The notes below the pieces were generated by a model. It saw nothing but the letters and a program-made list of their open reading frames with translations, had not been told where the DNA came from and did no database searches. Made by a program: the position numbers and the translations under genes. This document shows, in pieces, positions 132 to 30,926 of a stretch of 32,955 nucleotides of DNA. Position 1 is the first letter of the stretch. Every line of letters starts with the position of its first letter. The stretch comes from Oceanicaulis sp. (GTDB taxonomy: Bacteria; Pseudomonadota; Alphaproteobacteria; Caulobacterales; Maricaulaceae), in contig JAIUMW010000008.1 in the NCBI GenBank assembly GCA_022565365.1, positions 1-32,955 of the forward strand, written 5' to 3'.

Positions 132-1304
132 TCAGGTCAGGGATTTCAGCTGCTCGGCCAGATCGGTCTTCTCCCAGGAGAAGCCGCCATCGGCGTCGGG
201 CGTGCGGCCAAAATGGCCATAGGCCGCCGTGCGCGCATAGATCGCCCGGTTGAGGCCCAGATGGGTGCGGATGCCGCGCGGGGATAGATTGACCATCTCC
301 GGAAGGCGCTTTTCCAGCACCGCTTCACCGATCTCGCCCGTGCCGTGCAGGTCGACATAGACCGAGAGCGGCTTGGCCACGCCGATGGCGTAGGAGAGCT
401 GGATGGTGCACTTCTTTGCGAGACCCGCGGCCACCACGTTCTTGGCGAGATAGCGCGCCACATAGGCCGCCGAGCGGTCCACCTTCGTGGGATCCTTGCC
501 CGAGAACGCGCCGCCGCCATGGGGCGCCGCGCCACCATAGGTGTCCACGATGATCTTGCGGCCGGTCAGGCCGGCATCGCCATCGGGTCCGCCAATGACG
601 AACTTGCCGGTCGGGTTGACGTAGAACTCGTCCTCGGGCGGGAACCAGCCCTCGGGCAGGACCTGTTTGACGATCGGACGCACCAGCTCGCGCACCGTGT
701 CGAGCGAGACGCCATCCTTGTGCTGGGTGGAGACCACCACGCTGGTCACCGCGACCGGGCGGCCATTTTCATAGCGCAGGGTCACCTGGGACTTGGCGTC
801 AGGCTCGAACTCGGGCCGCTCGCCGGATTTACGCAGGCGGGCCATCTCTTTGAGAATCTGGTGGGAATAGGTGATCGGCGCAGGCATCAGCTCGGGCGTC
901 TCGTCGCAGGCAAAGCCGAACATGATGCCCTGGTCGCCCGCGCCCTCTTCCTTGTAGGCGCCGGTGCCCTCGTCAACGCCCTGGGCGATGTCGGCGGACT
1001 GTTCGTGCAGATAATTGGCGAAGTTGGCGGTTTCCCAGTGGAAGCCGTCCTGCTCATAGCCGATATCGCGCACGGCGGCGCGCACGGCCGCTTCGATCTC
1101 TTCGCCGGGGACGTCGGCGGCGCAGCGGGTTTCGCCGGCCAGCACAATGCGGTTGGTGGTGGTCAGCGTTTCGCACGCCACCCGCGCCACCGGGTCACGC
1201 GCCAGAAACAGGTCCACCACCGTATCGGAGATGCGGTCGCACACCTTGTCCGGGTGACCTTCGGAAACGCTTTCGCTGGTGAAGAGATAGGAAGTTCGGG
1301 CCAC
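132..1304 (-). CDS. metK: S-adenosylmethionine synthetase
   Basis: [30 protein letters not shown]..., [22 protein letters not shown] start at 1304. Confidence 0.97.
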
Positions 1305-1312
1305 GCGGGATG

Positions 1313-1340
1313 CTCCATATAAAGATTGCTTTATATGGAG
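1313..1340 (-). promoter_or_regulatory. Perfect inverted repeat (12-bp arms, 4-nt spacer) directly upstream of metK, overlapping its SD
   Basis: CTCCATATAAAG-ATTG-CTTTATATGGAG; the GGAG of the arm is the apparent metK SD, 8 nt from the GTG. Confidence 0.75.
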
Positions 1341-1413
1341 GGCTTAAAGCCTATCCCCGCCGCAATTGCAAGCCGGTTGGCGAAGCCGGGCCGTCGCCAG
1401 CCCGGCGCGCGCC

Positions 1414-1850
1414 TCAGGCCTCGTCCACTTTGGCGGCCGCCGCTTCGGCTTCTTCAGCGGCCAGTGTGCGCACCAGCTCCAGAATCCGGCGGCGCACCTT
1501 GCCGTCCTTGATGCGCGCAAAGGCCTGGGCCAGCGCCACGCCATCGGCCGACTGGATGAAATCGTCCACGATCGGGGTCTGGTCGCCTTCGGAAAAACCA
1601 GGCTGGGCGGCCGCTTCAGACACGCCGTCATAAAAGAAGGACACCGGCACATCGAGCACCCGCGCCATCAGCCACAAACGCCCCGCGCCCACACGATTGG
1701 TGCCGCGCTCATACTTCTGTATTTGCTGGAAAGTCACGCCCAGCTCATCGCCCAGCTTTTCCTGCTCATATTCAGAAGCTGGCGGCGCAGACGCACGCGC
1801 GAGCCAACATGACGATCTACGGCGTTGGGGCCACGGGGATTTACGCTCAT
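1414..1850 (-). pseudogene. XRE/Cro-C1 family HTH transcriptional regulator, apparently frameshifted (1-nt deletion near 1762-1766)
   Basis: From ATG at 1850: MSVNPRGPNAVDRHVGSRVRLRRQLLNMS; then a frame change into QEKLGDELGVTFQQIQKYERGTNRVGAGRLWLMARVLDVPVSFFYDG...VDEA. Length 437 nt = 3n-1. The tracked ORF 1414..1902 has a nonsense N-terminus. Confidence 0.85.
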
Positions 1851-1902
1851 AATGGGCTTTTCCTGTCTTCAGCGCCGGACCGTGTGATCCTGCTGCATTC
1901 AA

Positions 1903-25743: not shown

Positions 25744-25784
25744 ATGAACAAGGCCCGGAGCAATGCGCTCCGGGCCTTGTTCAT
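25744..25784. terminator. Long perfect hairpin (18-bp arms, 5-nt loop) downstream of xerC, probably a bidirectional terminator
   Basis: ATGAACAAGGCCCGGAGC-AATGC-GCTCCGGGCCTTGTTCAT. Confidence 0.75.
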
Positions 25785-30841: not shown

Positions 30842-30875
30842 TGCCGCCCTGCGCCCCCTCGCAGGGCGGCATTTT
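30842..30875 (+). terminator. Rho-independent terminator of the diiron gene
   Basis: TGCCGCCCTGCG-CCCCCT-CGCAGGGCGGCA followed by TTTT. Confidence 0.85.
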
Positions 30876-30894: not shown

Positions 30895-30926
30895 AAAACC
30901 GCCCGCCGGCAGCCGGCGGGCGGTTT
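30895..30926 (-). terminator. Rho-independent terminator of rpmB
   Basis: AAACCGCCCGCCGGC-a-GCCGGCGGGCGGTTT; minus strand reads ...GGGCGGTTTTGTTTG. Confidence 0.85.

Follow-up and report, generated by a model that had tools for sequence, protein, structure and literature searches.

The metK gene of Oceanicaulis sp., encoding methionine adenosyltransferase (132..1304, minus strand; 390 aa with a GTG start; TIGR01034, 485.8 bits), has its Shine-Dalgarno (SD) sequence inside one arm of a palindrome at 1313-1340. This raises the question whether the repeat acts as RNA, by hiding the SD, or as DNA, as an operator, and in the latter case for which regulator. The whole stretch of DNA analysed here, 32,955 nucleotides, is called the window. 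Positions 1313-1340 read CTCCATATAAAGATTGCTTTATATGGAG, a 12-bp inverted repeat with perfect arms and a 4-nt centre. On the minus strand the predicted operator is CTCCATATAAAG-CAAT-CTTTATATGGAG (CTCCATATAAAG-ATTG-CTTTATATGGAG with the ATTG centre), and it contains the conserved core ATAAAG-N4-CTTTAT at 1319-1334. The GGAG of the SD (1313..1316, minus strand) forms the last four bases of the distal arm and ends 8 nt before the metK GTG at 1304. The perfect arms, the placing of GGAG and the AT-rich composition in a GC-rich genome, as described in the initial annotation, agree with the sequence; the palindrome has 32% GC against 67% in the window.

Under a first-order Markov model, about 0.03 repeats with perfect arms of at least 12 bp and a loop of 3–8 nt are expected per window-sized sequence. 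The window contains three further such repeats, GC-rich or terminator-like, and among the four the one at 1313-1340 is the AT-rich, promoter-proximal one. The repeat at 25744-25784 is a perfect 18-bp inverted repeat, ATGAACAAGGCCCGGAGC-N5-GCTCCGGGCCTTGTTCAT, which resembles a terminator or the end of a mobile element. Those at 30842-30871 and 30896-30926 are GC-rich, perfect and terminator-like, with 12 and 14 pairs, and are spaced 25 bp apart.

The region before metK was compared between the source genome and 14 relatives of its genus, and outside the genus in further genera of the order, Sphingomonas, Sphingopyxis, Phenylobacterium and another Caulobacteraceae MAG. The core lies 12–15 nt before metK in all 15 genus genomes, with a single substitution in one of them, and GGAG is invariant. 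Only 7 of the 15 retain the two outermost base pairs of the stem, and 6 of 15 retain the complete four-pair match of CTCC with GGAG (anti-SD/SD). Outside the genus, the palindrome is kept in many genomes at 12 to 84 nt from the metK start, and in most of these the SD is separate from it. Across the genomes compared, the constant element is the DNA palindrome and not its position relative to the SD. The initial annotation had counted absence of the repeat upstream of metK in relatives as evidence against its proposal, and the repeat was found there. One genus relative also carries a second metK-like gene (G013:C1:2985246-2986355), 53% identical to that of the window.

The source genome was searched with the long repeat, allowing up to 3 mismatches, and separately with its inner 16 bp. 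The long repeat gave one other copy, CGCATAAAGATATCTTTATATC, on contig C185, which ends about 40 bp before metF, with metH (methionine synthase) directly after metF; the metF SD lies outside this palindrome. The inner 16 bp gave a third, weaker copy, ATAAAGATATGCTTAT (two mismatches), on contig C18. It is followed after about 170 bp by the hom-metX-metB operon, which encodes a homoserine dehydrogenase, MetX and a protein resembling cystathionine gamma-synthase.

Next to this, 41 genomes of the order were searched for the pattern ATAAAGANATCTTTAT, one mismatch being allowed. Merging strands, 87 distinct places were counted, while the reversed control pattern matched 2. Neighbouring genes were assigned by tblastn with the source genome's own proteins and the SahR of one relative; 81 of the 87 places adjoin metK, metF/metH, hom-metX or metX, ahcY, or a sahR-type gene. 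No methionine gene was found near the other six (in G015, G018, G021 and G032), five of which do not show the outer AT-rich dyad and seem to be matches by chance. The recurrence at methionine genes proposed in the initial annotation was thus borne out at metF-metH and, more weakly, at hom-metX-metB, while ahcY and sahR are preceded by the palindrome elsewhere in the order.

These data bear on whether the palindrome has a function at all. The window does hold three other long perfect inverted repeats, but so few are expected per window, and the core is kept in 15 genus genomes and recurs at functionally linked genes across the order. The reading as a chance palindrome is refuted by this conservation and retains practically no probability.

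A second reading is that the arms pair in the metK leader and hide the SD, so that temperature, SAM or another signal adjusts translation. The leader RNA indeed folds into a 12-bp hairpin (-19.3 kcal/mol; z -2.9), GGAG lies within the stem, and CC-GG pairing is retained in most of the genus. However, before metF, hom, ahcY and sahR the same palindrome is found clear of the SD of each gene, it stands at varying distances before metK outside the genus, and within the genus the SD pairing is poorly kept, as the counts above indicate. Moreover, the presumed start of transcription is at odds with it. A candidate -35 hexamer, TTGCAA (1366..1371, minus strand), is followed 17 nt downstream by a candidate -10 hexamer, TTTAAG (1343..1348, minus strand), and the elements CTTGC and TTTA.GC are unchanged in 15 of 15 genus genomes. 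From these conserved candidates the metK transcript should start inside the first arm, and the anti-SD bases would then be lost. The promoter named in the initial annotation, TTGCAA-17-TTTAAG, is present at 1371..1343 (minus strand) with elements invariant in the genus, although a strict sigma-70 scan found no promoter and did not call it.

Rfam covariance models found no riboswitch in the window or in L001, L031 and L040, while SAM-SAH (RF01727) was clearly matched in the metK leaders of the Rhodobacteraceae controls L110, L132 and L145. A SAM/SAH riboswitch at metK was therefore rejected. The idea that sequestering the SD is the main function was not supported, since the motif recurs without an SD and up to 84 nt from other metK starts, the outer pairing is kept in fewer than half of the genus genomes and Rfam is negative. 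Control by the hairpin is very improbable, and the SD pairing of the palindrome looks incidental.

The other proposal of the initial annotation, a DNA operator for a regulator of the methionine cycle, gains support from the recurrence at metF-metH, hom-metX-metB, ahcY and sahR. In many genera the palindrome stands about 20–60 bp upstream of sahR, which lies just before metF, and this placing directly upstream of sahR-metF makes the sahR product the likely regulator. A protein with an ArsR-type HTH and a methyltransferase domain is encoded in 38 of the 41 genomes of the order, including all 14 genus relatives; that of G012 has 315 aa with HTH_5 and Methyltransf_11. SahR is known as an SAH-responsive member of the ArsR family with a 20-bp palindromic motif, and its core regulon consists of sahR, ahcY, metH, metF and metK, while hom-metX-metB is one of several additions to this core (Leyn et al. 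2014, PMC4239095). It was reported in Caulobacterales (4 of 4) and Sphingomonadales (7 of 7), and among the Rhodobacterales of that study in the two genomes of Hyphomonadaceae, which have it in place of the SAM-SAH riboswitch and MetR (PMC4239095). A SahR regulon was likewise described in Ensifer aridi (PMC8877191). The element before metK, ATATAAAG-N4-CTTTATAT, is 20 bp long like the published palindrome, the two being likened by length, regulon members and taxa. Recurrence at methionine genes, conservation of the core, linkage to sahR and the match to the published regulon together argue that the palindrome is a DNA operator, very probably that of SahR, and with high confidence we predict it to be the binding site of this ArsR-type, SAH-sensing repressor.

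In the source draft, no SahR homologue was found at E 1e-25. Of the ArsR/HTH_20 genes listed from the draft, those whose reading frames were inspected, on C337, C15, C18 and C67, were rejected as SahR, being without the ArsR-methyltransferase make-up. In G012, sahR is flanked by a photolyase-like gene and pgi. In the source draft, contig C198 begins inside the photolyase-like gene and C143 stops at its last base (8183) inside pgi; about 1.54 kb is missing between them, at the place where sahR is expected. The absence of sahR from the draft is best read as an assembly gap.

The gene just upstream of metK offers another candidate regulator. This XRE-family gene (1414 to about 1857) adjoins the palindrome and its product has an HTH_3 domain, and the initial annotation had named it as a possible owner of the operator. 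However, the motif recurs at methionine-cycle genes and beside sahR, so that its constant neighbour is the ArsR-methyltransferase protein and not an XRE protein; the XRE gene itself has no repeat marking autoregulation, and its frame is shifted by one base in the source draft. An XRE operator was rejected on regulon content and sahR linkage, and we give this reading hardly any weight. As an observation on the gene itself, which lies between lnt and metK (1414-1857, minus strand), the one-base shift is near 1761-1766 in comparison with G012 (NMSRKSWAM in the window, NMSQEKLGDELG in G012) and probably reflects an assembly error in the draft or a recent frameshift.

For the SahR operator, the genomes directly show a conserved site that recurs upstream of regulon genes and a SahR-type gene in nearly all relatives, and a course of regulation can be proposed from them. 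SahR would be an ArsR-type winged-helix repressor with a C-terminal methyltransferase-like domain, whose dimer is predicted to bind ATATAAAG-N4-CTTTATAT over the presumed metK transcription start and block initiation. When S-adenosylhomocysteine rises, SahR would be released, allowing expression of the genes that serve to recycle homocysteine and make SAM (metK, metF-metH and hom-metX-metB). It is also conceivable, but improbable, that in this genus the palindrome doubles as SahR operator and as a translation-limiting hairpin in transcripts starting further upstream, such as read-through from lnt-XRE.

The SahR regulon as predicted here resembles the published one in having a palindrome of matching length upstream of metK, metF/metH, hom-metX-metB, ahcY and sahR across the order, and an ArsR-type regulator gene. 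It differs in two respects: ahcY and sahR are without sites in the genus, and the metK site overlies the presumed transcription start and the SD. Unlike in other genera, no near-exact site was found in the genus at ahcY (four genomes, L244-L247) or sahR (L188-L201), and sahR sits next to pgi instead of metF. By this comparison the genus appears to show lineage-specific shrinkage of the regulon together with an apparent loss of sahR autoregulation. Both losses are small differences between lineages. Elsewhere in the order, G024 has neither a sahR-type gene nor a site, G025 and G029 encode SahR yet have no near-exact site, and G033 and G037 have no near-exact site before metK.

The hom-metXC operon of Oceanicaulis alexandrii was reported to be under both SAM_alpha and SahR (PMC4239095), and relatives of the window show the same arrangement, with weak, sub-threshold SAM_alpha (SAM-II) matches directly after the hom-metX site in genus relatives (L221:2306-2399, L225, L226 and L230). 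This suggests double control with a diverged SAM-II. No SAM_alpha match was reported in the source genome's own hom leader, L017.

Two other known systems were compared. SamR of Xanthomonadales is a SahR-like regulator which also controls metK and other methionine genes via a palindrome (PMC4239095), but its 24-bp motif, in which ATC-10 nt-GAT is shared with the gamma SahR motif, does not fit 1313-1340. The SAM-SAH riboswitch (RF01727) of Rhodobacterales likewise regulates metK in related Alphaproteobacteria and has the SD as part of its RNA element, whereas an RF01727 match is absent in the window, L001, L031 and L040.

In summary, the metK palindrome is very probably a new instance of the published SahR regulon, and thus a regulatory site of an ordinary kind rather than a novel RNA switch; the state of the genus, without sites at ahcY and sahR and with a site on the metK start, is slightly unusual. 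A previously unexplained palindrome can now be assigned to a published regulon. The case also shows how a repeat beside a Shine-Dalgarno can be distinguished from an RNA switch: it recurs at other promoters, and its distance to the start codon varies. The missing sites at ahcY and sahR offer a modest and testable example of how a regulon is rewired within a genus.
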